This document shows positions 25,643 to 41,220 of a DNA stretch of 64,000 nucleotides, piece after piece. This DNA is from Thiomonas arsenitoxydans. Lineage in GTDB: Bacteria > Pseudomonadota > Gammaproteobacteria > Burkholderiales > Burkholderiaceae_C. The stretch lies in contig NC_014145.1 in assembly GCF_000253115.1 (NCBI RefSeq), positions 2,046,001-2,110,000 on the forward strand. Direction: 5' to 3'. A model generated the notes under the pieces. That model ran no database searches. It was not told the DNA's origin and saw nothing but the letters and a program-made list of their open reading frames with translations. The position numbers and the translations under genes are program-made. How positions within the stretch are numbered: position 1 is the first letter of the stretch; every line of letters starts with the position of its first letter.

Positions 25643-25672
25643 TTGACCCTTTTCGGTTTGAACTCCTAGACT
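25643..25672 (+). promoter_or_regulatory. Sigma70-type promoter ahead of fluoride riboswitch 1
   Basis: -35 TTGACC at 25643-25648 and -10 TAGACT at 25667-25672, spacer 18. Transcription would begin near 25680, just before the aptamer. Confidence 0.6.
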
Positions 25673-25684
25673 GCACAGCAACCA

Positions 25685-25745
25685 TTAGGCGATGGAGTTC
25701 GCCAAAACCGCGTGGGGCTGCCCCCAAGCTAATGACTCCTACCTG
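25685..25745 (+). ncRNA. Fluoride riboswitch (crcB motif) 1, controlling the Ehr-type operon
   Basis: The 5' aptamer element GGCGATGGAGTTCGCC (25688-25703) is followed by AAAACCGC, a GGGG/CCCC hairpin and the 3' element GCTAATGACTCCTACC (25728-25743). These are the conserved parts of the crcB-motif fluoride aptamer. Downstream, CGCAAGC/GCTTGCG (about 25747-25769) could form the switching hairpin, with GGAGGAG of the first gene at 25781-25787. No long T-run is present, so control may be at translation. Confidence 0.92.
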
Positions 25746-25789
25746 CCGCAAGCCATGCAATCGCTTGCGTTTCACGACAGGGAGGAGCC

Positions 25790-26734
25790 ATGCGCGGTGA
25801 CGTCATCTTGCAGCAAGTGTGCCAGGTACTGGCCATTGTGCTGCTCTCGCCTTTGCTGCACGGTTTCATCGTCACGATGGAAGAGAAGGTGCAGCGCGGC
25901 CGCGGCCCCAGCCTCTTTCAGCCTTACCGCGATCTGTTCAAGCTGCTGCGCAAAGAGATCGTGGTGCCGCAGACGGCTTCGTGGATTTTCTGGGCCGCGC
26001 CCATCGTGGCGTTCTCGGCCATGCTCACGGTGCCCATTCTCATTCCGGTGCTGACCAACTATCCGCTGCCGCTCTCCGACATGGGCGACATTCTCGGCGG
26101 CGGGCTCATTCTCACCCTGGGTGGCTTCGCCATCCTGCTCGCCGGGCTGGACAGCGGCCATCCCTACGGCGGACTGGGGTCGAGTCGTGAGGCCATGCTC
26201 TCCATTCTGGCCGAGCCCACGCTGATCATGGTGTTCGTCGGCATCACCCTGCTGGCGCAGGCCATGCTGCCCTTCGTGGTCAACCATCTGCTGGTGGCCA
26301 GCGCGGCGGTGTTCTGGAGCCCGGCGCATTTGTTCCTGGTTGCGGCTTTTTTCATTTTGCTGACGGTGGAAACCGAGCGGCTGCCCATCCATTCGAGCAT
26401 CCACTACGAGATCTACATGATCGGCGAGGCCCGCATCCTCGAATACTCCGGCCCGCTGCTTGCGCTGCTGAAGTGGGCGTCGTGGATGAAGCAGGCCATT
26501 CTCTACACCATTTTTCTCAACGTGCTGACCATTCCCTGGGGTTTGTCCATCAAAGGCACGGCGCTGGGCATTCTGGGCGCCACCCTTGCGCTGCTGGCCA
26601 AATGGGCGGTGGTTGCGCTGATCATGGTGTTCGTCGATACCGCGCAGTCGCGCCTGCGCTTCTACCGCTATCAAGAGCCGCTGGCGCTGTCTTTCCTGAT
26701 GGCAATTCTCGCCATCGTGGCGCGTCAGGTGTGA
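25790..26734 (+). CDS. HyfC/NuoH-like membrane subunit of Ehr-type complex
   Basis: A 314-residue protein with about eight hydrophobic spans, homologous to HycD/HyfC and NuoH, the subunit that links the soluble arm to the proton channels. The loop VTMEEKVQRGRGPSLFQPYRDLFKLLRKE is the family signature; ERLPIHSSIHYEIYMIGEARILE matches the conserved cytoplasmic loop. First gene after fluoride riboswitch 1, with a strong Shine-Dalgarno site. Inferred role: ion-translocating membrane arm. Confidence 0.9.
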   Translation: MRGDVILQQVCQVLAIVLLSPLLHGFIVTMEEKVQRGRGPSLFQPYRDLFKLLRKEIVVPQTASWIFWAAPIVAFSAMLTVPILIPVLTNYPLPLSDMGDILGGGLILTLGGFAILLAGLDSGHPYGGLGSSREAMLSILAEPTLIMVFVGITLLAQAMLPFVVNHLLVASAAVFWSPAHLFLVAAFFILLTVETERLPIHSSIHYEIYMIGEARILEYSGPLLALLKWASWMKQAILYTIFLNVLTIPWGLSIKGTALGILGATLALLAKWAVVALIMVFVDTAQSRLRFYRYQEPLALSFLMAILAIVARQV

Positions 26735-26744
26735 GGGACCAACC

Positions 26745-27425
26745 ATGCTGATCTTCCACCTCGGCGGCGTGCAGGCCTCGCTCTTCAGCCTGCTGACCAT
26801 CGTCGCGCTCATCCTGGCTTTTGTCATGCTGGGATCGCACTGGATCAAGAACCACATTCTGGCGTTCGCCGCGGAATCTTGGGTGATCGCGGCGCTATCG
26901 GCAGCTATCGGCATCACCGGCCATTACCCGGAGCTGGTGTTCATCGCCGCGCTCACCGCGCTGTTTCGCGGCACGTTGCTGCCTTATCTGCTGGTGCGCA
27001 TCGTCAACGGGCTGGGGCAGAACCGCGAGTTCACCCCGCTGCTGCAGCCGGCGTCGAGCATCGTGCTGGGCGGCTTTCTGGTGCTGTTTTCCTATGCGCT
27101 TGCGCACAAGCTGGGCGTGCGTATGAATCTGGTGGACAACATCGCGGTGCTGGCGCTCACCGCCATGTTCTCGCTCAAGCTCATCGGCTTTCTCATGCTG
27201 GTGCTGCGGGCAGAGGCGGTGAGTTCCATCCTCGGGCTGCTGGTGATCGAGAACGGCATCTTTCTAGGCTCGCAGATTCTGGTGCCGGGCATGCCCTTGC
27301 TACTGGAAATGGTGATTCTGTTCGACTTGCTGATCATCGTCTCCACCTTCGGCATGCTGATCCGCTTCCTGCACAAGGAAATCGGCACCACGAGCAGCCG
27401 CGAACTCACAAGGCTGGTGGGGTGA
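26745..27425 (+). CDS. HyfE-like membrane subunit (NuoK-related)
   Basis: A 226-residue protein with about seven hydrophobic spans resembling HyfE of hydrogenase-4 complexes, whose C-terminal part is NuoK-like (LGLLVIENGIFLGSQILVPGMPLLLEMVILFD). Acidic residues in the late membrane helices (E and D in VIENG, LLEMVILFDLL) fit an ion path. It starts 10 bases after the HyfC-like gene. Confidence 0.85.
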   Translation: MLIFHLGGVQASLFSLLTIVALILAFVMLGSHWIKNHILAFAAESWVIAALSAAIGITGHYPELVFIAALTALFRGTLLPYLLVRIVNGLGQNREFTPLLQPASSIVLGGFLVLFSYALAHKLGVRMNLVDNIAVLALTAMFSLKLIGFLMLVLRAEAVSSILGLLVIENGIFLGSQILVPGMPLLLEMVILFDLLIIVSTFGMLIRFLHKEIGTTSSRELTRLVG

Positions 27426-27429
27426 GGCG

Positions 27430-28887
27430 ATGATCTGGAACGCGTTATATGCCATCTGGATCGTCACCGCGCTGGCGATGGCGGGGAGCTGGGTGTCGCG
27501 TCGCAGTCGCGTGGCCGAAGCGCTCAACCTCGCCGCGGCCATCATCGACTTCGTGCTGGTCGTCGTGTTGCTCATCGCCACGCCCAGTCAGCCCATCACC
27601 GCGCTGAACCATTACCTGCTGCTCGACACCTTCGGCGTGTGGGTGATGTTCTGCCTGGCCATGGTGTATCTGCTGGCCAGCGTGTACGCCATCGGCTATA
27701 TGCGCTGGATGCACGGCGAGCAGGCGCGGCTGCACCGCTTCTATTCGTTGTTTGCGGCGTTCGCGCTGACCATGTTCTTCGCCCCGGCGCAGAACAATCC
27801 GGGCCTGTACTGGATCGCCATCGACCTCACCACCATCGTCAGCGCCTTTCTGGTGGGCTTTCAACGCGCGCCCGAAAGCATCGAGGCGGCGTGGAAGTAC
27901 ATCGTCATCGTCTCCGCCGGGCTGGGTTTGGCGCTGCTGGGCACGGTGCTGTTTTACTGGGCCGGCACCTTCATCCTCGGCCCGGTGTACGACATGACCT
28001 GGGCCAATCTCGCCGCCATCGCCCCCAAGGCCGAGCCCTTGCTGCTGATGCTTTCTTTCCTGCTGGTGCTGGTGGGTTTTGGCACCAAGGTGGGCCTGGC
28101 CCCCATGCACACCTGGCTGCCGGATGCGCACAGCGAAGGCCCGGCGCCTGTCTCGGCCATGCTCTCGGGCGCGCTGCTCAACTGCGCCATGCTGGGCATC
28201 GTGCGCTATCTGCACATTCTGCAAGGCACGTCCATTGAAACGATGGCGCGCACCACCTTGGTGGTTCTGGGCGCCTTCAGCCTGCTGGTGGCGGCGCTGT
28301 TCATCAGCCGCCAAACCATCGTCAAACGGCTGGCGGCGTATTCGAGTGTGGAGCATATGGGCGTGATCGCGCTGGGCTTCGGCTTCGGCGGGCCGCTGGG
28401 CGTGATCGGCGCGCTCTATCACATGCTCAACCACTCGCTGACCAAATCGCTGGTGTTTTTCGGCGCTGGCAACATGATGCACGCTTATGAGAGCAAGGAG
28501 ATCGCCAAGATTCGCCGCGTGCTGCGCTTTTTTCCGCGCAGCGGCGCGATCTGGCTGGCCGGGGCGGTGGCCATCACGGGCGCGCCGCCGTTCGGGCTAT
28601 TTCTGTCGGAACTCACCATCCTGCGCGGCGGCATGCAGAGCGCCAACCCCTGGGCGGTGTGGTGGATGGCGGTGCTGCTCATTGTCATTTTCATCAGCTT
28701 TCTCAACCACTTCCGCGCCATGTTCTTCGGCCCGCGCCCCGACCATGAGCCGCATCTGGAATTGAAATTCGTGCATGTGGCGCCGATGGCGGTGGCGCTG
28801 GCCGCCATCCTGCTGCTCGGCCTGTGGTGGCTGCCGCCGATCTGGAATCATCTGGCGAGCATCGCCACGCAACTCGGAGGGGTGTGA
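27430..28887 (+). CDS. HyfF-like antiporter subunit (NuoL/M/N family)
   Basis: A 485-residue proton-antiporter-type protein (Proton_antipo_M) with about 13-14 membrane spans. Conserved features: VGFGTKVGLAPMHTWLPDAHSEGPAPVSAMLSG, with the family Lys and His, and YSSVEHMGVIALGFGFGG and LYHMLNHSLTKSLVFF downstream. It starts 4 bases after the HyfE-like gene and ends one base before the large subunit gene. Confidence 0.9.
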   Translation: MIWNALYAIWIVTALAMAGSWVSRRSRVAEALNLAAAIIDFVLVVVLLIATPSQPITALNHYLLLDTFGVWVMFCLAMVYLLASVYAIGYMRWMHGEQARLHRFYSLFAAFALTMFFAPAQNNPGLYWIAIDLTTIVSAFLVGFQRAPESIEAAWKYIVIVSAGLGLALLGTVLFYWAGTFILGPVYDMTWANLAAIAPKAEPLLLMLSFLLVLVGFGTKVGLAPMHTWLPDAHSEGPAPVSAMLSGALLNCAMLGIVRYLHILQGTSIETMARTTLVVLGAFSLLVAALFISRQTIVKRLAAYSSVEHMGVIALGFGFGGPLGVIGALYHMLNHSLTKSLVFFGAGNMMHAYESKEIAKIRRVLRFFPRSGAIWLAGAVAITGAPPFGLFLSELTILRGGMQSANPWAVWWMAVLLIVIFISFLNHFRAMFFGPRPDHEPHLELKFVHVAPMAVALAAILLLGLWWLPPIWNHLASIATQLGGV

Positions 28888-28888
28888 C

Positions 28889-30487
28889 ATGCGTTTTTGC
28901 GACACCACCCGCCTGAGCCCCGCCGAATTGCTGACGGCGGCCGACAGCCTGCTCACCGAACTGGGCGACACGCCCAGCGCCCACGGCCGCATGCAGATGG
29001 CCTACGCCTGTATTTGCGCCGAGGGAGGCATGGAGGTCATTTACGTCAGTAGCGCCCCCACGGCGCCGCAAGCGGTGCCTGCCCCCCAAGGGGGCGAGCA
29101 AACCTTGGGGCGGCCCGACGGTTTGCTCAACCAGGGCACGAACCAACCCTACAAGGTCTGGCGCGTGCGGCCGAAAGACCGCACCCTGCCCTCGCTGGCC
29201 AACAAGCTGCCGCTGCTGGGCTGGTACGAGCGCGAGATGATGGACTTATACGGCCTGCGCTTCGAAGGTCATCCCGAGCCGAACCCACTGGTTTTGCACG
29301 AGGGCGAGCCGCGCGATCCGGCGCCCTTGGCATCTGGCTTCGACCCCGCAGCCCCTGCAAGAGACTATTCGCCGCTGCCGCCCATCGTGCCGCAGGTGCA
29401 GGGGCCGGACATCCAGCGTCTGCCTTTCGGCCCGGTGCGGGCCGACATCGTCGAGTCGGCGCAGTTTTTGTTTTTCTACATCGGCGAAGGCATCCTGCAC
29501 TATCACCCGCGGCTGTTCTACAAGCACCGGGCGATGGAAGGGCGCTTTGAAGGCGCCACGCTGGCGACGGGCGCGGTGCTGGCCGAGCGCGTGAGCGGTA
29601 TCGACTCGGTGGCGCATGCGCTGGCATTTGCCCAGGCTGTGGAGGGCGCCATGGGCTGGCGCCCACCGCCGCGCGCCCGCTATCTGCGCGTCGTCCTGGC
29701 CGAGCTGGAGCGTCTGTACAACCATCTGCATTACCTCGGCCATCTGTCCAAGACCACCACGCTCAAGGTCGGTGAGACCGAAGGCCATCTGCTGGAAGAG
29801 AGGGTGAAGCAGATCAACGGCAGACTCACCGGCAGCCGCTTTCTGCGCGGGCTCATCACCCCCGGCGGCCTGCGCCGCGACCTCGACATCTCGGGTCTGG
29901 ACAAGGCGCTCGACAGCGTCAATGACGAGATCGACCGCTATCTGCAGCGCCTGGAAAACACCCGCAGCCACCTCGACCGGCTGATGACCACGGGCCGCTT
30001 GGAGCGCCAGGTGGCCTTCGACCAGGGCGCCTGCGGCCCGATCGAGCGCGCCAGCAACCTGGACCGCGATCTGCGCCGCGATCATCCCTACGCCAACTAC
30101 GAGAAGGTGCGCTTCTCGGTGCCCGTGCAGCAAGGCGGCGACGCCCACGCGCGCTCACTGGTGCGCATGGAAGAAATCCGCGAATCGCTGGCCATCATTC
30201 GTCAGACCATCGGCCGCACCAAGCCGGGCGAGGTGCTGCGCTTCGACGTGATGGAAGACGCCGATCCGCAGGGCGAAGGGCTGGGCTGGGTGGAGGCCAC
30301 GCGCGGCGGTCTGCTTTACGCCGTGCACTTGAGCGAAGACCGCACCCGCCTGCAGCGCGTGAAAATCAAAGAGCCGTCGTTCTCGAACTGGCGGGTGTTT
30401 CCGTTCACTGTGGAGGACAGCAACATGATGGATTACGCCATCAACGAAGCCAGCTTCGGCCTGTCCATCGCGGGCGCTGACCGCTGA
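28889..30487 (+). CDS. Ehr-type large subunit: NuoC-NuoD/HyfG-like fusion without NiFe cysteines
   Basis: A 532-residue fusion starting at ATG 28889 (GGAGGGG upstream). The NuoC-like part (about 1-165) includes WYEREMMDLYGLRFEGHPE; the NuoD/HycE-like part follows. The NiFe-binding motifs are altered. Where hydrogenases have RxCGxC, this has RVSGIDSVAH; where they end in DPCxxC, this ends SFGLSIAGADR. All four Cys ligands are missing, so hydrogenase activity is not expected. This matches energy-converting hydrogenase-related (Ehr) proteins. Residues about 53-80 are encoded by a palindromic repeat. Confidence 0.9.
   Translation: MRFCDTTRLSPAELLTAADSLLTELGDTPSAHGRMQMAYACICAEGGMEVIYVSSAPTAPQAVPAPQGGEQTLGRPDGLLNQGTNQPYKVWRVRPKDRTLPSLANKLPLLGWYEREMMDLYGLRFEGHPEPNPLVLHEGEPRDPAPLASGFDPAAPARDYSPLPPIVPQVQGPDIQRLPFGPVRADIVESAQFLFFYIGEGILHYHPRLFYKHRAMEGRFEGATLATGAVLAERVSGIDSVAHALAFAQAVEGAMGWRPPPRARYLRVVLAELERLYNHLHYLGHLSKTTTLKVGETEGHLLEERVKQINGRLTGSRFLRGLITPGGLRRDLDISGLDKALDSVNDEIDRYLQRLENTRSHLDRLMTTGRLERQVAFDQGACGPIERASNLDRDLRRDHPYANYEKVRFSVPVQQGGDAHARSLVRMEEIRESLAIIRQTIGRTKPGEVLRFDVMEDADPQGEGLGWVEATRGGLLYAVHLSEDRTRLQRVKIKEPSFSNWRVFPFTVEDSNMMDYAINEASFGLSIAGADR
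29047..29129 (+). repeat. Palindromic dispersed repeat, copy D, inside the Ehr large-subunit gene
   Basis: Starts with the same GCGCCCCCA as copies A and B. Arms GAGCAAACC (29096-29104) and GGTTTGCTC (29120-29128) are perfectly complementary around TTGGGGCGGCCCGAC. It is read in frame as a Pro/Ala/Gln/Gly-rich segment between the strand MEVIYVSS and NQPYKVWRVRP of the NuoC-like domain. Confidence 0.85.
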
Positions 30488-30502
30488 AAGAGGAGAGCCG
30501 CC

Positions 30503-31324
30503 ATGCCTGTATGGACTTGGTTTAGCCTTCAAAAAGGCCGCGCCACCACCCCCTGGCCCGAGCGCCCCGGCCCGGACGGGCAGGAGGGCGTGCTCGGCCT
30601 GCCGCGCTTCGATGCCGCGCGCTGTTCCAGCGAGCAAAGCGGCTGCAGCGATTGCGTCGCGGTCTGCCCTGCCTCGGCCATCAAGCGCAGCGAAGCGGGC
30701 GCGGTTCAGCTCGATTACGCCCGCTGCGTCGGTTGCCAGCTCTGCACCGAGGTCTGCCCGGAAAGCGCGTTCAGCGTCAGCCATGACTGGGCGTTTGGCG
30801 TGCGCGACAAGTCCGATCTGCTCAACCCCGCCCAAGCCGCCCCCACGAACCCCGACGCCGCGAAAGAAGCCGAACTCGCGCAAGCGATGAAAGGTTTCGG
30901 CAAAAGTCTGCACATCCGCCATGTGGACACCGGTTCGTGCAACGGTTGCGAAAGCGAGCTGCAGGCCCTGCTCAACCCCTTCTACAACCTGCACCGGCTG
31001 GGCGTTTTTTTCACACCCTCGCCGCGGTTTGCCGACCTGTTGCTGGTCACCGGCCCGGTGACTGCCGCCATGCGCGAGCCGCTGCTGCGTACCTATGAGG
31101 CCATGCCCCAGCCGCGCTGGGTCATGGCCGCCGGCACTTGCGCCACCGGGGGCGGCACCAATGGCGGCGGTTATGCCTGCCACGAGGGGCTGGACGGCAT
31201 TCTGCCAGTGGACGTGTGGCTGCCCGGCTGCCCACCCAACCCGGCGGCGCTGATCGAAGCGCTGCTTTTGCTGCTGCGGCGCAGCCCGCAGCGGGTGCAC
31301 GGAGGCGTTTATGAATCTGCCTGA
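30503..31324 (+). CDS. Ferredoxin-small subunit fusion (HyfH-like + HyfI/NuoB-like)
   Basis: A 273-residue fusion. The N-terminal ferredoxin part (about 30-100) has two 4Fe-4S sets: a C-x6-C-x2-C-x3-CP set (CSDCVAVCP) and CVGCQLCTEVCP. The C-terminal part is HyfI/NuoB-like, with CNGCE, GTCATGG and LPGCPPNP supplying the four Cys of the proximal 4Fe-4S cluster. The electron wire thus looks intact although the NiFe site is absent. The end overlaps the next gene by 14 bases. Confidence 0.9.
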   Translation: MPVWTWFSLQKGRATTPWPERPGPDGQEGVLGLPRFDAARCSSEQSGCSDCVAVCPASAIKRSEAGAVQLDYARCVGCQLCTEVCPESAFSVSHDWAFGVRDKSDLLNPAQAAPTNPDAAKEAELAQAMKGFGKSLHIRHVDTGSCNGCESELQALLNPFYNLHRLGVFFTPSPRFADLLLVTGPVTAAMREPLLRTYEAMPQPRWVMAAGTCATGGGTNGGGYACHEGLDGILPVDVWLPGCPPNPAALIEALLLLLRRSPQRVHGGVYESA

Positions 31325-33314
31325 TTCCGTCTCGTTGACCGCTTTCGGCTTGGCCGCGTTGGCCTGGTTGCTGGCGCTGCTGGCCGATCTGCTCATCGGC
31401 ACCGCCCTGCCCCGTCTGCTGCTGGCGGCAGGCTGCGTGCTGGCGGCGCTGGGCGCGCTGTGGGGTCTGCCCGAAGGCGGCGCCAGCCAGACCTTGCTGC
31501 TGCTGGGCAACTCGCCAGTGGTGTTTCAACCCGATGCCTCCGCACTGTGGCTGATGCTGCCCGCGCTGCTGCCCGCCTTTTTTGCCAGCCTGCTTGGCGG
31601 CACGGGGCACGCCCGCGGCTGGGCCGCTGGCGCGGCACTGTCGCTGCTCGGTGCGCTCGGGTTGTATGGCTTGCAGGACGGCGCGAGCTTTCTCATCGCT
31701 TGGGAAGTGATGGGCTTCGGCGGCGCGCTCATGCTGCTGGCCGACCATCGCAGCGTGCAGGCCGGGCGCGACAATCTGTTCATGCTCGCGCTGCTCGAAG
31801 TCGGCGGCGTGGCGCTGCTGCTGGCCGTGCTCATGCTGGGCCAAAGCCTGGCCTTCGGCACCTACGCGCTGCAATGGACGCAGTGGGGCGTGGCTTCGGC
31901 CTTCTTCCTCGGCCTGCTGTGGCTGGCGGGCTTCGGCGCCAAGCTCGGGCTGCTGCCGTTTTACGAGTGGTACCCAGGCGCCTACGGCAGCGGCAGTGGC
32001 TCCAGCGGCGCGCTGATGTCCGGGGTGGTGATGAATGCGGCCTACTTCGCCCTTGGCCGTGCGCTGCTGCAGTGGATGGGCCATCCGCCCTGGCTGGCCG
32101 CGTTCGGCGTGGTGGTGCTGGCTGCGGGCACGTTCACCGCCATTCTGGCGATTCTCTATGCCTTCCAGCAGAGCGACTGGCGGCGCTTGCTCGCCTTCTC
32201 CTCCGCCGAAAACGCCGGGGTCGCCGTCACCGCGCTGGGGGCGGCGCTCATTTTCCGCGCGGGGGGGCAAGACGCCCTCTCGGCCCTTGCCTGGACAGTG
32301 GGCATGCTGCACCTCATGGGCCACAGCCTGGCCAAGGGCACGCTGTTTCTCAGTGCCGATGCCGCCGCCGCGCTGCAGGGCAACCATCACCTGCGGCAAA
32401 GCGCCATCCTGCGCCATGCGCCGCTCACCCTCGGGCTGGGCGCAGTGTTCGGCGCCATGAGTCTGGCCGCCATGCCGCCCACCGCGGGCTTCGTCAGCGA
32501 GTGGTATCTGTTCCAGAGCCTGTTCCACGACTTCACCCTCAAGACCGATGGTTCGCGCATCGCTCTGGCGCTGGCTGGCGCCGGCATGGCGCTGACTGCG
32601 GCCATTGCGCTGGCAACCATGGTCAAGCTGTTCGGCGTCGGCCTGCTCGGGCAGAACGAGGAACACGCCGCGCAGCACCGCAAACACCAGACTGCGCTCA
32701 CGCCGCTGCAACGCGGGGCCGTGCTCGTCACCGGGCTGGCCGTGCCCGCGTTCGCGGTGAGTCTGGTGTTCTGGCTGCCGCAGATGGCCGCCTCGGCCTG
32801 GCCCGCCGCGCAAGCCCCGCAGAAGATGACGCATGACTGGCTGCTGGTGCCGCTGTCGGCCGGGTTCGCATTCATCTCACCGGCCATGCTGGTGATCGTC
32901 GTGCCCTTGCTCGCCCTCATTCCTTTGGCCCTGGTATGGGGTCGGCGCCGCTATGCCGTACGCCGTGCGCCGCTGTGGTGCGGCGGCGAGGACTACGCCG
33001 CGCACGCCGGGGCGACCACAGCGCTGTCGTTCTCCAACGCGCTGCGGGTGTTCTACAACTTCATCTACCGGCCGCAAAACGCGGTGGCGCGGCAGTTCGA
33101 GGGCAAGGCCTATTTCCTGAAAGAATTGCAGTTCGATTATTCGCAGGCGCCGCTGTTCGGCCCGCTGCTGTTCAACCCTGCGGTTCATGCGGTGCAATGG
33201 CTGGCGCGCAAATTGCGATTCCTGCAGAACGGGCTGATGAACGCCTATCTGGCTTATATCGGCGTGTTGTTGCTGGTGATTTTTGGCTTGGTGCTGGTGT
33301 GGAGTCCAGGCTGA
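31311..33314 (+). CDS. HyfB-like antiporter subunit (NuoL/N family)
   Basis: A 667-residue membrane protein with about 15-17 hydrophobic spans. Family features: FLIAWEVMGFGGALMLL, FGAKLGLLPFYEWYPGAYG (conserved Lys in the first half-channel) and LLAFSSAENAGVAVTALG. The C-terminal extension holds a cytoplasmic CGGEDYAAHAGATTALSFS stretch seen in HyfB/HycC relatives. Second antiporter subunit of the operon; with HyfF-like it makes two potential pumping channels. Confidence 0.9.
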   Translation: MNLPDSVSLTAFGLAALAWLLALLADLLIGTALPRLLLAAGCVLAALGALWGLPEGGASQTLLLLGNSPVVFQPDASALWLMLPALLPAFFASLLGGTGHARGWAAGAALSLLGALGLYGLQDGASFLIAWEVMGFGGALMLLADHRSVQAGRDNLFMLALLEVGGVALLLAVLMLGQSLAFGTYALQWTQWGVASAFFLGLLWLAGFGAKLGLLPFYEWYPGAYGSGSGSSGALMSGVVMNAAYFALGRALLQWMGHPPWLAAFGVVVLAAGTFTAILAILYAFQQSDWRRLLAFSSAENAGVAVTALGAALIFRAGGQDALSALAWTVGMLHLMGHSLAKGTLFLSADAAAALQGNHHLRQSAILRHAPLTLGLGAVFGAMSLAAMPPTAGFVSEWYLFQSLFHDFTLKTDGSRIALALAGAGMALTAAIALATMVKLFGVGLLGQNEEHAAQHRKHQTALTPLQRGAVLVTGLAVPAFAVSLVFWLPQMAASAWPAAQAPQKMTHDWLLVPLSAGFAFISPAMLVIVVPLLALIPLALVWGRRRYAVRRAPLWCGGEDYAAHAGATTALSFSNALRVFYNFIYRPQNAVARQFEGKAYFLKELQFDYSQAPLFGPLLFNPAVHAVQWLARKLRFLQNGLMNAYLAYIGVLLLVIFGLVLVWSPG

Positions 33315-33395
33315 GTCAGGCTTCTGCGGCGTTTCTTGGGCTGCGTCTCACGGCGTGGCAGTTCTTTCACTTCCAACCTTTTTTGGATGTTCCCT

Positions 33396-34191: not shown

Positions 34192-34584
34192 ATGAATCCT
34201 TCGAAACACGCCGCGGTCTGGATCGACCACAACGAGGCGCATGTGTTCTTCGTCGATCCAGAACATGTGCGCGAATCCATCGTGCACTCGCCGCACCCGC
34301 ATCAACATCTGCATCACAAGGCCAACACCATCGGCTCGGGCAAGGCGCAGGAAGATGAACATTTCTACCACTCCGTAGCAGAGTCTCTGCGCGACGCGCA
34401 TGAAATTCTGATTACCGGGCCGGGGCAGGCCAAGCTGTGGCTCATCAAACACCTGCACAGCCACGACCCGGAGGTGTTTGATCGGGTGATCGCGGTGGAA
34501 ACGGTCGACCATCCCTCGAACAATCAACTGGTGGCGCATGCGCGGCATTACTTCGACGTGAGCGACCGGCGCATCACCTTCTGA
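34192..34584 (+). CDS. Uncharacterised His-rich protein, eRF1-like translational machinery family
   Basis: A 130-residue soluble protein (HAAVWIDHNEAHVFFVDP, a His-rich HSPHPHQHLHHKANTIGSG, then EILITGPGQAKLWLIKHLHSH and ARHYFDVSDRRITF). The pattern resembles small betaproteobacterial proteins named translational machinery protein, related to the eRF1 central-domain fold (GPGxAK). I do not know a function. It lies between crcB-DUF190 and the zinc-ribbon gene. Confidence 0.6.
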   Translation: MNPSKHAAVWIDHNEAHVFFVDPEHVRESIVHSPHPHQHLHHKANTIGSGKAQEDEHFYHSVAESLRDAHEILITGPGQAKLWLIKHLHSHDPEVFDRVIAVETVDHPSNNQLVAHARHYFDVSDRRITF

Positions 34585-34599
34585 CCACTGGAGCACGTC

Positions 34600-35064
34600 A
34601 TGGGCGAGCGCAGCGCTTTTCAGTATTGCACCTGGTGCTTTGCCGAAATTCCGCTCGATGCCCAGGTCTGCCCCGACTGCGGCACCAACCTCGACGATTA
34701 CGCGCGGCACACGCCCTACCCCGACCGCCTGATCCACGCCCTGCACCATCCCCTGAGCGAAACGCGCATGGGCGCCATCATCGCGCTGGGCAAACAGGCC
34801 GATCCGCACACCATCGGGGCGCTGGCCGACTGTGCGCTGGAGCATGACGGTGATGTGATCGAGGGGCTAGAAATCCTGCATAGCCTGGCCGAGATGCCCA
34901 CGGCCGACCCGCGGCTCAAAGCCGCGTTGCAGCGGCTGGCTGAGCAGCATCCGGCGCACGCCGTGCGTACCCGCGCCCAGTACCTGCTTCAAACCCATCG
35001 CCAAGCGGACAAGGCCGATTTACAGAACGATCAGGATTCATCCGGCCCGAAGACTTCGGCGTAA
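34600..35064 (+). CDS. Zinc-ribbon protein with HEAT-like repeats
   Basis: A 154-residue protein. An N-terminal zinc ribbon (CTWCFAE, then CPDCG) is followed by alpha-helical HEAT-like repeats (LSETRMGAIIALGKQADPHTIGALAD and the next units) and a disordered polar tail. Probably a scaffold or partner-binding protein; no function known. Starts 15 bases after the previous gene. Its 3' end overlaps the convergent MutS-like gene by 34 bases. Confidence 0.7.
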   Translation: MGERSAFQYCTWCFAEIPLDAQVCPDCGTNLDDYARHTPYPDRLIHALHHPLSETRMGAIIALGKQADPHTIGALADCALEHDGDVIEGLEILHSLAEMPTADPRLKAALQRLAEQHPAHAVRTRAQYLLQTHRQADKADLQNDQDSSGPKTSA

Positions 35065-36545
35065 AGATCGGCGCCAAAACTGGTCTGCAGGGCATCGCCC
35101 GCCTCAAGCCGGAAGCTGCGGCTGCCGTCGTCGCGGCGTTCGGCGCGCAGCATCAGCACCTGATCGGCGTTCTGGCCTTGCAGCCGTCTTGCAGCGTCGA
35201 ACAGGTGCGTGACCAGCGCCACCTTGATGTCGCGCTGACGCAGCGCATCGACCGCCTGCAGCAGCAGTTCGGAGCCTTCGCGCTCGTTGGTCGAGGCAAA
35301 CGATTCGTTCGACAGCCAGAGCGCACCGGGGCGAATCTGATCGGCAATCACGCTCATGCGGTCGAGCTCTTCGTCGAGTTTGCCGCCCTGCATGCCGGCA
35401 TCTTCTTCGCGCTTGTAGTGGCTGAACAGACCGCTGGCCAGCTCGCCGCCATACGATTCGGCCGCGACGAACAGACCGGCATGCAGCATGAGCTGAGCCA
35501 GCCCGACAGAGCGCAGAAAGGTGGACTTGCCGCCCTGGTTCGCCCCGGTCACGGCGATCAGGTTCTTGCCGTTTGCATCGAGCGTATTGCCCACCGGGGC
35601 GCGCTGCAGGGTAAGTGCCAGAGTGGGGTCGCGCAGCGCCTGCGTGCGCAATTGCAAGGCGCCGATCGGCTTGAACGTGGGGATGCACACCGGCACGTCC
35701 AGCGCCGCCAACCGCTGTTGCAGATTGAGGCAGGCGACGTAAAAGCCCAGTTCGGCGCGCAGCAGTTCAAAGAAACTCAGCACATGATCGGTGGCCTGCG
35801 CCATGGCGTTGGCCACGTCGTTGATGCCGCGATCGACCAGTTCAGACAGCGCCTGCGCGCCCGCCTCGTCGCGCTCGGCCAGGCGGAAGGTGTATTGCGG
35901 CGGGGCCTGGTGCAGCAGCCGCGCCAGCCAGCCGGGACGGCTGCCATTGCCCGCATGCAGCACGTAGCCGCTGCCCGCATTGCCCGGGCCAAGGCCCGAG
36001 CTGAGCAGCACGCCATGCCGGAATCGCAGCGTCTCCAGATGCTCCTGCACCGTATCGAAATAGTCATCGCTGATGTCGCGTTTGAGGCTTTCGAACAGCG
36101 TGCCAAAGGCCTCGGAGCGGAAGCTGCCGCTCAGCGCATCAGCCTGCTGGCGCAAGCGGCGCAGGTATTGCACAAAGGTCTGCAGCAGCTCGACCGCGCC
36201 GCGCAGATTGAAGCTTGGATAACGCCCGAACAGCCCCAGGCCGAACAGATGCTTCTTGCGGCTGTCGATGGCTTCAACCACCAGCGCGTAGAGCGCCCTC
36301 ATCTGTTCGGGATGATTGAGCGCATCCTGCAATGCGGACTGCCGGTAGGAGATGACGCGGGCATCGCCTGCGCCGCTGGCGGCCATGAGGGTGCGCGCCG
36401 CCACGTCGAGCAAAAAAGCGTCACCCTCGGTCATTGCGCCCAGCAGGGTATCGACCTCCAGGTCTTGCGCCAGCTCGGGCCATTGCGGCGGCGGATCGGC
36501 CTTGGGATCGAAGTCACGATCGGGAAACAGCAGATGGGCTTTCAT
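35031..36545 (-). CDS. Short MutS-like ATPase 1 (no mismatch-recognition domain)
   Basis: A 504-residue protein with only the MutS core/lever helices and the C-terminal ATPase. Walker A is GANQGGKSTFL; the Walker B region reads LWLSNESFASTNEREG, with Asn where MutS has Asp before the catalytic Glu. The C-terminal VALVTHLFDAA carries the ABC H-loop His. The N-terminal mismatch-binding domains of MutS are absent. Last gene of the riboswitch-2 operon; its ATG overlaps the stop of the neighbouring MutS-like gene (ATGA). Role in fluoride response unknown. Confidence 0.88.
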   Translation of the reverse strand: MKAHLLFPDRDFDPKADPPPQWPELAQDLEVDTLLGAMTEGDAFLLDVAARTLMAASGAGDARVISYRQSALQDALNHPEQMRALYALVVEAIDSRKKHLFGLGLFGRYPSFNLRGAVELLQTFVQYLRRLRQQADALSGSFRSEAFGTLFESLKRDISDDYFDTVQEHLETLRFRHGVLLSSGLGPGNAGSGYVLHAGNGSRPGWLARLLHQAPPQYTFRLAERDEAGAQALSELVDRGINDVANAMAQATDHVLSFFELLRAELGFYVACLNLQQRLAALDVPVCIPTFKPIGALQLRTQALRDPTLALTLQRAPVGNTLDANGKNLIAVTGANQGGKSTFLRSVGLAQLMLHAGLFVAAESYGGELASGLFSHYKREEDAGMQGGKLDEELDRMSVIADQIRPGALWLSNESFASTNEREGSELLLQAVDALRQRDIKVALVTHLFDAARRLQGQNADQVLMLRAERRDDGSRSFRLEAGDALQTSFGADLYAEVFGPDES

Positions 36546-38158
36546 GTGGGAATGCGTTCGAGCAGTTGCTGCCGGGTGACGCCGAATTTCTGCGCCAGCG
36601 CCAGCGCGTAAGACTTGCCATCGGCGGCGCGTCGCACCACTTTGAAGGTGCGCAGGGTCGGGTCTTGGGCATCGACCGTGCCCACCATGCTTACGGTGTG
36701 CGCATCAAAGGTGGAGAGCTCGTCGAGAAAGGTGACGAACACGCAGGCCGCGCCAATGGCGGCGAGCCGCGCCATGATGTGCCGCGCCAGCCAAAGCGCA
36801 TCATCGAGCGTGGTGGACGAAAAGATCTCGTTCATCAGCACCAGGCTGTGCGGCGTGGCCGCGGCCAGAATGCGGTGCATGCGCACCAAATCATCCTGCA
36901 GTTTGCCGCGCTGGTTGCTGATGTCTTCGACCCGCTCGAAGTGAGTGAACATCTGGTCGGGCAGCAACAGGCTGGCGCTGTGCGCGGCCACGGTCAAACC
37001 CAGCGAGGCGATGTGGTGCAACTGGCCGAAGGTGCGCGCCAGCGTGGTCTTGCCGCCGTGGTTGGGGCCGGTGACGACCAGCATGCGCTCGTCGCCTTGC
37101 AGCGCCATGTCGTTGCACACCACCGGTTTTTGCGCATCGAGACACTGCCAGGCCAGCGCCATGTCGTAGGCCTCGCGGGCGTCTATATGGCCCTGTTCGA
37201 GGTTGAGGGTGGGAAAACACAGCGGCAGTCCGGCGCGCTCGAGGCGCTGGGTGTAATCGATCCAGGACAGATACCAGGCCAGCTCGCGGTCCAGACGCAC
37301 GATGCGGGCCTCGGCAAAACCTTCCTGCGCGCTGCGAAACTGCGCCAGCCGCTCGAACACCTCCGGGTGCAGCAGGGCGACACGGTCGAGTAGTTGCCCT
37401 TCCACATGGTTCAACCGCGAAGCCGGGTTGAACTGCACACGGTAGTCTTTCACCTCGCCCTGGCGAAAGCGCGCGAAAGTATCGGCGATGGTGGCGCTGT
37501 AGTCCGGCTCCTGCGGGTCTTGCAGCACGGTGACTGCGGTGCCGTCCACGCGAAAGGCGTAGCGCACCTGCGCCAGCGCTTCGATCAAAGCCTGAGCTTC
37601 CTTCATGCGCTCGGTGTGTGCGGGCGAGGCCAGCAAGTCGGCGACATGACCCTGCAAGGATTGCAGCGCCTGCGACTGCAGCTCCGCGCCGGCCAGCGTC
37701 TGATGCAGGGCTTGCAGCGCATGGCCGTAAACCAGCGCGGCGTCCACAAACCAGCGCTGCCCCTCGGCGGCGTAATCCGCTTTTTCTGCGCGACGCAGCG
37801 AGGTGCGCAACTCTTGCATGCCGCGCTGAAACGCGCGCATGCCCTTGAGCAGCGGCGCCTGTTTCAGGTCGCGTAGCGCGGCCTGACGGTACTGCACCAC
37901 GCTCAGCTCATGCAAGGGCGTGCCGAACAGCGCCTGCAACAAAGCCAGCACCTCGGCGCGATAGGGTGCTTCGTCATCTCCCTGATGGACCACATAGAGC
38001 GACGGCTTTTCGCGCGGGGCAAAGCTGCCGTAAGCCCCCATGAAAATCGCCTCTAAGAACAAGTCGTGGAACACATCACGAAGATCGGGGCGAGACTGCG
38101 CGGCCTCCTGCTCCGGGGAGGGATAGACGATGCTGTGAAACCCCGACGTGCCCGTCAT
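36542..38158 (-). CDS. Short MutS-like ATPase 2
   Basis: A 538-residue paralogue-type neighbour of the preceding entry. ATG 38158 (MTGTSGFHS) is preferred over the TTG 4 codons earlier. ATPase motifs: Walker A GPNHGGKTTLAR; Walker B region LVLMNEIFSSTTLDDA, again Asn for Asp; H-loop replaced by VTFLDEL. Like its partner it lacks mismatch-recognition domains. It starts 8 bases after the enolase stop. MutS homodimerises, so a heterodimer of the two coupled products is plausible inference. Confidence 0.88.
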   Translation of the reverse strand: MTGTSGFHSIVYPSPEQEAAQSRPDLRDVFHDLFLEAIFMGAYGSFAPREKPSLYVVHQGDDEAPYRAEVLALLQALFGTPLHELSVVQYRQAALRDLKQAPLLKGMRAFQRGMQELRTSLRRAEKADYAAEGQRWFVDAALVYGHALQALHQTLAGAELQSQALQSLQGHVADLLASPAHTERMKEAQALIEALAQVRYAFRVDGTAVTVLQDPQEPDYSATIADTFARFRQGEVKDYRVQFNPASRLNHVEGQLLDRVALLHPEVFERLAQFRSAQEGFAEARIVRLDRELAWYLSWIDYTQRLERAGLPLCFPTLNLEQGHIDAREAYDMALAWQCLDAQKPVVCNDMALQGDERMLVVTGPNHGGKTTLARTFGQLHHIASLGLTVAAHSASLLLPDQMFTHFERVEDISNQRGKLQDDLVRMHRILAAATPHSLVLMNEIFSSTTLDDALWLARHIMARLAAIGAACVFVTFLDELSTFDAHTVSMVGTVDAQDPTLRTFKVVRRAADGKSYALALAQKFGVTRQQLLERIPT

Positions 38159-38166
38159 GCCAGGTC

Positions 38167-39456
38167 TCAACGGTAGGGGTTGACGAATTCGGCCCGATCA
38201 CCCAATTCGGCTTCGATCTCCATCAGCCGGTTGTACTTGGCCAGCCGCTCGCTGCGCGCCGTTGCGCCCGACTTCATCTGCCCCGCGCCCACGGCCACGG
38301 CAAAGTCGGACAGGAAGGCGTCTTCGGTCTCACCGCTGCGGTGCGACATCACCGTGCCCCAGTCCACTTTCTGGCACAGGCGCACCGCGGCGATGGTCTC
38401 GCTCACCGTGCCGATCTGATTGAGTTTGATGAGCGAGGCATTGGCCGTACCTTCGTCGATGCCGCGCTGGATGATGCGGGTATTGGTGACGAAGTTGTCG
38501 TCGCCGACGATCTGAATCTGACCGCCGAGTTGGCGCGTCATCGCAGCGAAGCCAGCCCAGTCGTCCTCGGCATGGCCGTCTTCAATCGAGACGATGGGAA
38601 AGACGTTGAGCCAGCCCTGATACAGCTCGACCATCTCCTGACTGTCGAGCACCTGATTGCCACTGCGGCTCAGGTGGTAGCGGCCATTTTTATAGAACGA
38701 GGTCGAGGCCGGATCGAGCGCAATGGCGATATCTTCTCCCGGCCGATAGCCCGCGCGCTCCATGCCGCGCACCATCAGCTCGCAGGCCGCCTGATTGCCG
38801 CCCATCAACTTGGGCGCGAAGCCGCCCTCATCGCCCACCGCGGTGGAATGTCCTTGCGAGATCAGCAACTCCTTGATGGCGTGATAGGTCTCGGCGGCAT
38901 AGCGCACCGCTTCGCTGAAACTCGGCGCGCCCATCGGCACGAGCATGAACTCCTGAAAATCCAGACTGCTGCCCGGTGCGTGCAGGCCGCCATTGAGCAC
39001 GTTGAACATGGGCATGGGCAGCAGGTTCGACGGCTTCTCGCACAAGCTGCGATGCAGCGGCTCACCGCGCACCAGCGCGGCGGCGCGGGCGGCGGCCATG
39101 CTCACCGCCAGCAGCGCATTGGCGCCCAGACGCGCCTTGTTGGGCGTGCCGTCTAGGGCGATGAGCGCCGCGTCGATCGCGGCCTGATCGCACACGTCGC
39201 GCCCTTTGAGCGCCTCGGCGATTTCGCCCTCGATATGGGCAATCACCTTGCGCACCCCTTTGCCGAAATAGCGCTTCGGGTCGCCGTCGCGCAGTTCCAC
39301 CGCATCGTTGCTGCCGGTGGAAGCCCCCGAGGGCACCGCCGCCGAGGCGCGCGCCCCCGACTGCAGCGTGATGGTGGCCTTCACGGTCGGCGTGCCGCGG
39401 GAATCGAGAATTTCCTGCGCGCGAATCGAAGAAATAAGAGCGTCTGAAGCAGGCAT
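38167..39456 (-). CDS. eno: Enolase (probably a fluoride-response paralogue)
   Basis: Enolase converts 2-phosphoglycerate to phosphoenolpyruvate. ATG 39456 gives 429 residues. Catalytic and metal regions are all present: SAAVPSGASTGSNDAVELRD, GDEGGFAP, SIEDGHAEDDW, LIKLNQIGTVSET and MSHRSGETED. Context is unusual: between cfa and MutS-like genes under a fluoride riboswitch rather than near pyrG-kdsA-ftsB. Fluoride with phosphate inhibits enolase, so an induced copy is functionally sensible. Whether another eno exists in the genome cannot be seen. Confidence 0.93.
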   Translation of the reverse strand: MPASDALISSIRAQEILDSRGTPTVKATITLQSGARASAAVPSGASTGSNDAVELRDGDPKRYFGKGVRKVIAHIEGEIAEALKGRDVCDQAAIDAALIALDGTPNKARLGANALLAVSMAAARAAALVRGEPLHRSLCEKPSNLLPMPMFNVLNGGLHAPGSSLDFQEFMLVPMGAPSFSEAVRYAAETYHAIKELLISQGHSTAVGDEGGFAPKLMGGNQAACELMVRGMERAGYRPGEDIAIALDPASTSFYKNGRYHLSRSGNQVLDSQEMVELYQGWLNVFPIVSIEDGHAEDDWAGFAAMTRQLGGQIQIVGDDNFVTNTRIIQRGIDEGTANASLIKLNQIGTVSETIAAVRLCQKVDWGTVMSHRSGETEDAFLSDFAVAVGAGQMKSGATARSERLAKYNRLMEIEAELGDRAEFVNPYR

Positions 39457-39525
39457 GGCCTCTCCTTGAAGGGTGGACATCGGTGGCGCGAAACCGCACC
39501 GCCGCACTCGCAAAATTACGCGCAA

Positions 39526-40887
39526 CTACGCCGTCTGCGCTTCGGCCGACGCCGCAACGACTTGCGGTTTTTCTGCGTTTGTCGAGCCTGCGCTTGCCTT
39601 GCCCGCATACTGGTAGCTGCGGTTGAACGGATACTCGGACTGCCGGGCCCGCAGCAGGCGGTCGCAATCGATGCGGTCTTCCACCACGCCATCCGGACGG
39701 CTTCCAAGAATCTGGAACAGCGAAATCCACCCCTGCTCAAAGCCCATGGCCGATCCCGCGAGGTACAGCCGGTAAGCGCGCAAGGTCTTTTCAGCATGCT
39801 CGCCCAGCACGCGGCGAGCTTCGTCGAGATGGCCTTCGAGCGCATCGACCCAGTACCACAGCGTTTTGGCGTAATGCGGCCGCAGACATTCGAAATCCAG
39901 CGGCTCCAGGCCGCCACGCGTCATGGTCTCGGCCATTACGCTGACATGCACGAGCTGCCCGCCCGGGAAGATGTACTTCTCGATGAAGTCGCCCATGCCG
40001 CCGGCGAGCTGGCTGTTGTCCACGCCTCCGGCGGTAATGCCGTGGTTCATCACCAGCCCGCCCGGCTTGAGCAAGCGGCGGATTTTGCTGAAATACAGCG
40101 GCAGATTCGGGCGGCCAACGTGTTCGCACATGCCCACTGAAGCCACTTTGTCGAAGGGCTGCGACTCGTCCACATCGCGGTAGTCCTGCAGCAACATGCG
40201 CACTCGTCCCTGCAAGCCTTTTTCGACGATCAGCCGGTTCACATGGTTGTACTGATTCTTCGACAGGGTGATGCCGGTCGCGTCCACGCCGTAGTGCTCG
40301 GCGGCCCACAACAGCAGCCCGCCCCACCCTGCGCCGATGTCGATGAAGCGCTCGCCCGGCTTGAGCATGAGCTTGGTACAGATGTGATCGAGCTTGGCTT
40401 CCTGCGCCTGCGCCAGGGTCATCGACGGCTCGGCGAAATAAGCGCAGGAATACACCCGGCGCGGATCGAGCCACAGGGCATAAAAATCGTCGGACACGTC
40501 GTAATGGCTCTGAATCTGCGCGGCGTCTTTTTCGCGGCTGTGGTGGCTGTGCTCCCACAGGGTGCGGCGCAAGCCGTGCCATATCCGCGCGGTGGCGGCC
40601 GAAGGCTCGTTGCGCGGGTCGTCGTCGAGCAGCACCGGAGCGATGCGCATGAGGTCGCGCAGATTGCCCAGAATGTCCACCATCCCCTCGACATAATCTT
40701 CAGCCAGTTTGCCGATCTGCCCGGTGGTGATGTGCCATAGCGCGCGTTTGTCGCGCAGGCGCATTTCGATTTGCGCATTGCTCGGGCCCACGCGCTGCCC
40801 GCCCGGCAGCACCACACTGCAGGGCAGCGGAAGATGGGACAGACGCGCGTCAACCCGGCCAAGAAGAGAGGATGAGATCGAAGACAT
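39526..40887 (-). CDS. cfa: Cyclopropane-fatty-acyl-phospholipid synthase
   Basis: Cfa uses S-adenosylmethionine to methylenate unsaturated acyl chains of membrane phospholipids, usually under stress. The 453-residue product has an N-terminal lipid-binding domain, then QSHYDVSDDFYALWLDPRRVYSC, the SAM motif FIDIGAGWGG and GVDATGITLSKNQ, with MCEHVGRPN near the active site. The C-terminus carries an extra Ala/Ser/Glu-rich tail. It follows the small ORF and fluoride riboswitch 2; AAGGAG precedes the ATG. Gap to eno is 69 bases. Confidence 0.95.
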   Translation of the reverse strand: MSSISSSLLGRVDARLSHLPLPCSVVLPGGQRVGPSNAQIEMRLRDKRALWHITTGQIGKLAEDYVEGMVDILGNLRDLMRIAPVLLDDDPRNEPSAATARIWHGLRRTLWEHSHHSREKDAAQIQSHYDVSDDFYALWLDPRRVYSCAYFAEPSMTLAQAQEAKLDHICTKLMLKPGERFIDIGAGWGGLLLWAAEHYGVDATGITLSKNQYNHVNRLIVEKGLQGRVRMLLQDYRDVDESQPFDKVASVGMCEHVGRPNLPLYFSKIRRLLKPGGLVMNHGITAGGVDNSQLAGGMGDFIEKYIFPGGQLVHVSVMAETMTRGGLEPLDFECLRPHYAKTLWYWVDALEGHLDEARRVLGEHAEKTLRAYRLYLAGSAMGFEQGWISLFQILGSRPDGVVEDRIDCDRLLRARQSEYPFNRSYQYAGKASAGSTNAEKPQVVAASAEAQTA

Positions 40888-40899
40888 ACGGAACTCCTT

Positions 40900-41055
40900 T
40901 CAGATGTTGGCAAGCACGAACCGACGCCCCAGCAGACACAGACGCTGCGAACAAAGCGGAAGCATGAGTTGTTTTTGCGCGGACCGAGGGCGCTGGGCGG
41001 AAGCCCCGTCTTGCGCCTGCGGCAAGACACTCCTGATCAATGGGGATGTAAACAT
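40900..41055 (-). CDS. Candidate 51-aa small protein or leader peptide downstream of riboswitch 2
   Basis: A 51-residue minus-strand frame from ATG 41055 (MFTSPLIRSVLPQAQDG) to TGA 40902-40900, preceded by AGGGAGGAG with ideal 6-base spacing. The stop abuts the cfa ribosome site (TGA then AAGGAG), suggesting translational coupling. The product is basic with two Cys and no recognised family. It could be a real small protein, a regulatory leader peptide, or chance. Confidence 0.45.
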   Translation of the reverse strand: MFTSPLIRSVLPQAQDGASAQRPRSAQKQLMLPLCSQRLCLLGRRFVLANI

Positions 41056-41080
41056 CCGCAACTCCTCCCTGAAGGCGGCG

Positions 41081-41100
41081 CCCGCTGCACGGGCAGCGGG
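41081..41100 (-). promoter_or_regulatory. Hairpin in the riboswitch-2 expression platform
   Basis: CCCGCTGC / GCAGCGGG with a 4-base loop, between the aptamer (ends 41115) and the AGGGAGGAG ribosome site of the small ORF. No T-run follows, so it may modulate ribosome access rather than terminate. Confidence 0.5.
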
Positions 41101-41114
41101 TCAACCGGAACATG

Positions 41115-41181
41115 GGTAGGAGTCATCAGCCTGGGGCGAAACCCCTATTGAGGCAATTGCACGGCGAACTCCATCGCCGTT
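41115..41181 (-). ncRNA. Fluoride riboswitch (crcB motif) 2, controlling sORF-cfa-eno-mutS-like operon
   Basis: Read on the minus strand: GGCGATGGAGTTCGCC (41178-41163), identical to the 5' element of riboswitch 1, then TTGCC, a GGGG-TTTCG-CCCC hairpin and GGCTGATGACTCCTACC (41131-41115). The two sites share both conserved ends while the middle hairpins differ, as expected for homologous aptamers. A promoter lies directly upstream. Confidence 0.92.
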
Positions 41182-41191
41182 TGTTGATTTG

Positions 41192-41220
41192 AATTTAGGC
41201 CATGAAATGCGCAGGGTCAA
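41192..41220 (-). promoter_or_regulatory. Sigma70-type promoter ahead of fluoride riboswitch 2
   Basis: Minus strand: -35 TTGACC (41220-41215), 17-base spacer, -10 TAAATT (41197-41192). It places the start of transcription just before the aptamer. Confidence 0.7.

Follow-up and report, generated by a model that had tools for sequence, protein, structure and literature searches.

A probable fluoride-response island in Thiomonas arsenitoxydans with two convergent operons, each behind a fluoride riboswitch

Introduction

Fluoride riboswitches (Rfam RF01734, the crcB motif) define the regulon closest to the locus described here: a 15.5-kb region of the Thiomonas arsenitoxydans chromosome that quite probably represents a fluoride-response island of two convergent operons, with one fluoride riboswitch each. 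The region lies in a stretch of 64,000 nucleotides (nt), the window (contig NC_014145.1, positions 2,046,001 to 2,110,000), to which all coordinates refer. The paper on the crcB motif names mutS, ion-transport and formate hydrogen lyase genes for it (Weinberg et al., 2010; PMC2864571), and a 2024 review adds enolase and Na+/H+ antiporters and reads formate hydrogen lyase as fermentation (PMC11139923). Both island aptamers belong to this regulon. The locus differs in that two switches frame one island that also carries cfa. We also replace two of its gene labels: mutS becomes a MutS-core ATPase pair, and formate hydrogenlyase an energy-converting hydrogenase-related (Ehr) complex. The two labels, in use since 2010, shaped models of fluoride toxicity (DNA damage and a fermentation shift); we argue from the sequences that both mislead for these loci.

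Other described systems invite comparison. The Ehr complexes: these combine hydrogenase-4-like membrane and hydrophilic subunits and lack a nickel site. The island complex likewise has six hydrogenase-4-like subunits, with iron-sulphur cysteines kept and nickel cysteines lost, and is unlike them in standing behind a fluoride riboswitch in one operon with crcB. The MutS-core ATPases of the MutS2/KamC type: the two island proteins, here termed MutA and MutB, share with these a core plus ATPase domain of about 500 residues, but fall far below both family cut-offs, form a side-by-side pair, have NE for DE at Walker B and have no Smr domain reported. KamC is, by its NCBIfam name, a lysine 5,6-aminomutase reactivase. 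The GI3 operon of Enterobacter cloacae FRM (ppaC-uspA-eno-gpmA-crcB-orf5249): this is a six-gene, riboswitch-controlled, knockout-tested fluoride operon, probably transferred, which shares eno and crcB with the island; in contrast, it has one switch, and the examined part of the GI3 table lists neither an Ehr complex nor a MutS pair nor cfa (Liu et al., 2017; PMC5533749).

Within the open-licence literature searched, there is no precedent for multi-switch islands as a recurring arrangement, for the revised identity of two gene classes, for the Asn that marks Walker B of the MutS pair or for the clade of island enolases; that cfa and dynamin-like genes are repeated components of these loci is likewise new. 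No paper in that literature brought MutS or dynamin together with fluoride and riboswitch, and none joined 'fluoride riboswitch' with 'cyclopropane' (all weak absences); fluoride, crcB and cyclopropane do co-occur.

Two fluoride aptamers frame the island

The original prediction, made from the sequence, had placed two inward-pointing crcB-motif aptamers at the ends of the region, and a covariance search with RF01734 (gathering score 34 bits) recovered both. The regulatory features are:

25679-25748, plus strand: fluoride riboswitch aptamer RF01734, 48.1 bits, E 3e-10, model positions 1-64 of 64
41110-41187, minus strand: fluoride riboswitch aptamer RF01734, 49.3 bits, E 1.2e-10, model positions 1-64 of 64
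25643-25672, plus strand: promoter-like site of the plus operon, TTGACC-18-TAGACT, 9 of 12 consensus letters
41192-41220, minus strand: promoter-like site of the minus operon, TTGACC-17-TAAATT, 9 of 12 consensus letters
34113-34137, plus strand: terminator-like stem 3' of DUF190, with 11 pairs, a loop of 3 and a T6 tail

No family besides the fluoride model reached its gathering score in the Rfam scan of the window, and the RF01734 search of the 3.79 Mb assembly gave no third aptamer. Among 274 genomes sampled from the class, 19 have a match at E<=0.001 (15 have one over the cut-off); hence, two aptamers within 15.5 kb are not a product of chance. Five class genomes have two aptamers, which lie on one contig within 16 kb in three of them and on different contigs in the other two. 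The promoter-like sites start at the end points of the original prediction (25643 on the plus strand, 41220 on the minus strand); such sites are not enriched in the region, with 3 found against 2.3 expected from shuffles. Terminator-like sites as a class are likewise not clearly above chance there (20 found against 13.3 expected, standard deviation 4.3).

Pfam and NCBIfam also agree with the gene families first proposed for the two sides. The plus operon runs in the order NuoH/HycD-like, HyfE-like, HyfF-like, NuoCD/HycE-like, ferredoxin-NuoB-like fusion, HyfB-like, crcB and DUF190, and the minus operon in the order short open reading frame (ORF), cfa, eno, mutB and mutA, with the genes from cfa on assigned by these databases. 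The proposed reach of the plus-side control stands through DUF190 and is refined at its end: since the terminator-like stem follows DUF190, the two small genes between the operons (34192-34584 and 34600-35064) are probably outside the fluoride operon. Base composition gives no foreign signal, with 64.1% GC in the island against 63.6% in the window.

Candidate translational switches in the leaders

In partition-function folds of both window leaders, the ribosome-binding site (AGGGAGGAG) pairs with the conserved 3' strand of the aptamer, ACUCCUAC. The expected ribosome-site/aptamer pairs number 5.55 and 5.96 in the window leaders, 5.83 in locus L022 and 5.98 in locus L024, the folded set being these four and the leader of L023, without a control set. 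This modelling makes a translational ON switch likely in both leaders: at low fluoride the ACUCCUAC strand would pair with the ribosome-binding site; fluoride binding keeps that strand inside the aptamer, so that fluoride should free the ribosome site and translation would start.

On the minus side, the aptamer-paired ribosome site belongs not to cfa but to a short upstream frame, seen in the window sequence and in the leader translations:

40900-41055, minus strand: leader ORF of 51 residues between the aptamer and cfa, its ribosome site pairing with the aptamer

The same frame is found in L022, and a more diverged one with recognisable beginning and end in L024. Its stop sits only 12 nt upstream of the cfa start, which suggests coupled translation, by which cfa-eno-mutB-mutA would be reached from the leader ORF. 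In L021, a metagenome assembly of Thiomonas intermedia, about 290 bp upstream of cfa are gone, together with the aptamer and most of the leader ORF; the gap, at about 7249-7257 (equivalent to about 40933-41222 of the window), has a 9-base overlap at the joint and is either a natural switch deletion or an assembly error.

The MutA-MutB pair

The two MutS-like genes end the minus operon:

36542-38170, minus strand: MutB, MutS-core ATPase subunit with the Walker B Asp replaced by Asn (Pfam MutS domain V), overlapping MutA by 4 nt
35031-36545, minus strand: MutA, MutS-core ATPase subunit with the same replacement (Pfam MutS domain V)

MutS_V is the only MutS domain that Pfam reports for either protein (E<=0.01), and also the only match over a Pfam cut-off. 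Relatives were collected by scanning a species-genome collection with an alignment of MutB relatives, and the best 80 of 530 confirmed matches define the 80 MutB loci used below. Among the relatives that bear a name, those closest to the island MutB come from Thiomonas. Asn-Glu is the Walker B reading of both window proteins and, across the 80 loci, of all 80 MutB relatives and 72 out of 73 MutA relatives (152 of 153 sequences; six of the 79 MutA alignments lack the Walker B column), while that of wild-type MutS is 'lvlmdei'. In all 79 loci that hold both, MutB and MutA lie side by side and share a strand.

Taken at its word, the 'mutS' label of the 2010 crcB-motif paper would make this pair a DNA-repair device that answers fluoride-caused DNA damage. 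This we regard as doubtful, and mismatch repair as such is unlikely from the sequences: Pfam reports no mismatch-recognition domain I, connector domain or Smr nuclease domain in either protein; most Escherichia coli MutS rows of the fold comparison align only from about MutS residue 260 on; and the Asp-Glu of Walker B is replaced by the same letter as in the engineered E. coli D693N mutant. The shared fold itself shows function neither way. The pair also stands apart from MutS2 (TIGR01069, 77.0 and 48.2 bits against a cut-off of 400, with no Smr match) and from the KamC reactivases (NF052383, 39.1 and 43.9 bits against a cut-off of 300).

We tentatively suggest, while giving it a low probability, that MutA-MutB might be a fluoride-dedicated heteromeric ATPase that does not act on DNA. 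The Walker B Asn would weaken Mg2+ coordination, so that the pair would escape Mg-fluoride trapping, and ATP would serve to pull inhibitory Mg-fluoride-phosphate complexes from enzymes, enolase first. This enzyme-clearing activity is modelled on the KamC-type MutS-core protein that is said to reactivate an aminomutase. The preferred reading of the island goes less far and takes MutA-MutB as a MutS-core ATPase pair that is tied to the fluoride response in many phyla. An anti-phage role was considered and rejected, PADLOC giving only marginal matches to MutA and MutB (E 0.005 to 0.008). Transfer is plausible, given that 45 plasmid records also carry MutB relatives and that 21 of these records are typed as conjugative.

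Recurrence in other genomes

As the 80 loci were picked by MutB alone, the aptamer had no part in their choice. They were searched with a covariance model built from 40 aptamers, all over the Rfam cut-off and 38 of them from 15 of the same 80 loci, which gave an aptamer hit in 62 loci (134 hits, E<=0.0055), two or more in 31 and three or more in 18; at a strict score of 34.5 bits or more these numbers become 43, 22 and 10. A same-strand aptamer lies within 700 nt upstream of the MutB match in 39 of the 80, and no aptamer was found at E<=1 in 58.8 kb of control sequence, taken from sixteen loci with housekeeping mutS or eno. The 62 aptamer-bearing loci are spread over 15 named phyla; two of the phyla are archaeal, and the hit in one of these two is weak.

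The genes that accompany the aptamers form a recurrent set. By tblastn, eno is near MutB in 31 of the 80 loci, crcB in 18, some Ehr subunit in 15 and cfa in 13; ORF clusters add dynamin-like GTPases in 20 loci, an MFS transporter in 19, and a Na+/H+ exchanger and a universal stress protein in 7 each. The first genes downstream of the 134 hits (the 139 model hits without the five weakest; 118 have a called gene within 600 nt) are: Mut 35, unassigned 30, dynamin-like 9, eno 6, DUF190 5, EhrH 5, metallophosphoesterase 4, cfa 3, Na+/H+ exchanger 3, others 18 and none called 16. Locus L024 has the convergent plan of the window, L026 has the same modules in tandem, and L064 (Pandoraea) has eight aptamers over the Rfam cut-off in the 21.5 kb fetched, at 630-16980.

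These counts supply the co-occurrence survey that had been proposed as a check, and they divide the original prediction. Its idea of a layered fluoride response is supported: genomes that are not related to one another hold the same families side by side, and the fold of the leaders is the one that an ON switch predicts. What finds no support is the view that these families are normally scattered and assembled as a module only here, with cfa as an addition peculiar to the island: the multi-aptamer loci speak against the former, and the presence of cfa in other MutB loci, with an ORF cluster that spans Pseudomonadota and Acidobacteriota, against the latter. From the sequences, the island is most likely a horizontally assembled fluoride regulon that combines export, proton pumping, membrane tightening, enzyme back-up and an ATPase pair.

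An alternative is passive co-location, with unrelated stress genes gathered beside crcB in a plastic region and only crcB mattering for fluoride. The modules do move independently: in the 21.6 kb fetched from L023 (Thiomonas bhubaneswarensis), cfa-eno-mutB-mutA is present and neither Ehr nor crcB has a match. Yet each side of the island has its own aptamer, in other phyla, too, separate aptamers precede these families, and the E. cloacae FRM study reports knockouts and complementation that indicated a contribution of genes beside crcB (PMC5533749), so that we consider co-location alone improbable.

The Ehr complex and crcB

The plus operon encodes the following proteins (profile scores in bits):

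25790-26734, plus strand: EhrH, NuoH/HycD-like membrane subunit (Pfam NADHdh 110.4)
26745-27425, plus strand: EhrE, HyfE-like membrane subunit (NF008556 52.4, below its cut-off of 136; without a Pfam match)
27430-28887, plus strand: EhrF, HyfF/Mrp-like proton-channel subunit (Pfam Proton_antipo_M 168.3; NF005044 390.8, below its cut-off of 610)
28889-30487, plus strand: EhrL, NuoCD/HycE-like large subunit without nickel cysteines (Pfam Complex1_49kDa 145.8 and Complex1_30kDa 43.6, on the longer ORF 28775-30487)
30503-31324, plus strand: EhrS, ferredoxin-like domain fused to a NuoB-like subunit (Pfam Fer4 and Oxidored_q6)
31311-33314, plus strand: EhrB, HyfB-like second proton-channel subunit (Pfam Proton_antipo_M 81.3; NF005086 285.8, below its cut-off of 667)
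33396-33779, plus strand: crcB, the Fluc fluoride channel (TIGR00494 80.9, over its cut-off of 80.45; Pfam CRCB 92.4 on the longer ORF 33336-33779)
33776-34102, plus strand: DUF190, COG1993 (Pfam DUF190 84.1)

The island crcB is the only one found in the genome (one Pfam match). The closest relative of EhrL with a solved structure is HycE, subunit 5 of formate hydrogenlyase (7z0s). Group 4 [NiFe] hydrogenases bind nickel by four cysteines in the motifs RxCGxC and DPCxxC. In the alignment, the first of these reads RVCGIC in HycE and RVSGID in EhrL, and the C-terminal site of EhrL reads EASFGLS. None of 18 aligned fluoride-linked large subunits has the nickel cysteines (two of the 18 show one site each); this set comprises that of the window, ten from MutB loci (two partial) and seven from the class aptamer regions described below, with the contig-end fragments of L066 and L088 left out. 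EhrS of the window retains its cysteines, 13 in all (41, 48, 51, 55; 75, 78, 81, 85; 146, 149, 213, 226, 243), which we take to be iron-sulphur ligands, and the two antiporter-like subunits retain the lysines to which we presume their usual roles. Judged by these sequences, the complex is of the Ehr type, as had been proposed from the start, with hydrogenase-4-like membrane and hydrophilic subunits and no nickel site, and is neither a formate hydrogenlyase nor a hydrogenase. That it is a real formate hydrogenlyase or group 4 hydrogenase which shifts metabolism to fermentation under fluoride is very improbable: the kinship with subunit 5 and the 2024 review, which lists formate hydrogen lyase among the commonest riboswitch-associated enzymes (PMC11139923), would fit it, but the nickel cysteines are missing and a Pfam scan of 20 ORFs from the island and its flanks turned up no formate dehydrogenase.

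The loss of the nickel site was also considered as a hallmark of fluoride linkage and rejected: 29 further large subunits, aligned from the 39 other matches in the sample of the phylum and not chosen for fluoride, all lack the full motifs too, so the loss marks a wider Ehr branch. A second Ehr-like large subunit, 33% identical, is present in the same genome (G000:C2:328983-330278), with no aptamer found there.

We delineated 16 regions, none of which has a MutB match, around aptamers over the cut-off in 14 class genomes; four further genomes, with weaker matches, were left out. An Ehr operon stands downstream of the aptamer in six of the regions (seven operons), which makes Ehr a main fluoride gene class there. 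One class genome has two different Ehr operons that face each other, each with a fluoride aptamer in front of it (L192:1839-17774). In L031 (Nitrospirae) and L065 (Terriglobia), an Ehr operon and the MutS pair run in the same direction behind fluoride aptamers.

Enolase and a protein of the cyclopropane fatty acid synthase family

Between the leader ORF and the MutS pair are:

39526-40887, minus strand: cfa, cyclopropane fatty acid synthase family (Pfam CMAS 313.4 over a cut-off of 27; NF040703, CfaB, 396.3, below its cut-off of 650)
38167-39525, minus strand: island enolase (TIGR01060 577.6, over its cut-off of 300)

The enolase ORF as called opens at TTG, and an in-frame ATG near 39456 is the likelier start. 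The genome has two other enolases, 55% identical to the island copy. At least two enolases are present in 26 of 28 genomes with eno in the MutB locus (28 of the 31 eno loci, L021, L022 and L025 being left out); hence, the locus copy is an extra one. Trees were computed from 61 of 62 enolases (the partial L128 left out) and, with six long rows also removed, from 55; two further copies, one partial and one with a stop, are in neither. In the tree of 55, twelve island copies including that of the window group as a clade (support 100/99) that contains no other copy, and the same twelve-member clade appears in the quick tree of 61; the other 12 island-labelled enolases fall elsewhere in the tree of 55. 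The island label changes 8 times on that tree against a mean of 18.1 in shuffles, with 0 of 500 as low, and has one known error: L108 is counted as 'other' but corresponds to the enolase truncated by the end of L088. None of 13 non-island enolases fetched has an aptamer within its 1.5-kb flanks, and 11 island copies have one.

The island enolase retains the motifs SHRSGETED, GDEGGF, IED and GDD, which we take to be catalytic. A specialised active site was rejected, since the twelve-member clade keeps the inspected motifs and has only scattered conserved differences (window ORF positions 213 T, 276 S, 326 F, 384 C and 436 E). The catalytic motifs being unchanged, the sequence gives no sign of fluoride tolerance; the clade is nonetheless a natural set in which to seek fluoride-tolerant enolases. 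An Asn after GDD fails as a diagnostic, only 3 of the 12 clade members (window included) having it. Neither is there a significant special bond between eno and the MutS pair: ORF clusters place eno in 27 of 80 MutB loci and in 2 of the 16 class aptamer regions, which lack MutB (Fisher p = 0.14). By the gene-cluster call, nine loci have eno directly next to the pair on the same strand, upstream in seven and downstream in two.

Elsewhere the genome has one weaker relative of cfa, with 37% identity along part of its length. Of ten genomes searched, eight hold two or more cfa relatives, fragments included, in a set of 29-plus rows that counts fragments and copies with stops. Besides the window, cfa stands on the same strand behind an aptamer in L022, L023, L024, L026, L034, L062, L064 and L092.

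A proposed course of the response

Hydrogen fluoride (HF) crosses membranes as a neutral molecule, which makes a tighter membrane a sensible fluoride defence; cyclopropane fatty acids, which the minus operon would supply, should slow the leak of HF by such tightening, and cfa and the dynamin-like genes point to membrane permeability as a defence layer. The plus operon would supply the fluoride channel CrcB, DUF190 and the Ehr complex. As HF leaks in and F- exits passively via CrcB, each round would admit a proton and spend membrane potential; the complex-I-like Ehr complex would pump protons (or sodium) out to repay this loop, and most likely serves to offset the HF cycle in this manner. The island enolase would back up a fluoride-inhibited step. 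The questions then become what the target of the ATPase pair is, and whether the proton leak by HF entry and CrcB efflux limits fluoride defence.

Several observations pull the other way. Eighteen of the 80 MutB loci have no aptamer at the threshold used: five of these have less than 1.8 kb upstream of MutB, L021 has its deletion (about 290 bp) and 12 are unexplained. The aptamer model is partly trained on the loci that it tests; among the 65 loci that contributed nothing to it, 47 show a hit, and 28 of these reach 34.5 bits or more. cfa is present in only 13 of the 80 MutB loci and was not found in the 16 class aptamer regions. The leader of L023, of the same genus, lacks a paired ribosome site; the fold method cannot represent the aptamer pseudoknot; and the pairing may be partly generic, the conserved CUCCU resembling an anti-ribosome-site.

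Neighbouring genes

The two genes between the operons are:

34192-34584, plus strand: Pelota/eRF1-like small protein, probably a separate unit (TIGR00111 25.6 bits, E 6.9e-6, below its cut-off)
34600-35064, plus strand: zinc-ribbon/HEAT-repeat protein (Pfam HEAT_2 30.1 bits), its 3' end overlapping that of MutA

Both genes (34192-35064) are also present in L021 and L024. To the left of the island (22710-25681) lie a GNAT protein (Acetyltransf_5, weakly FeeM-like) and a class II fumarase, the mechanically called ORF of which, on the opposite strand, extends into the first three bases of the plus aptamer.

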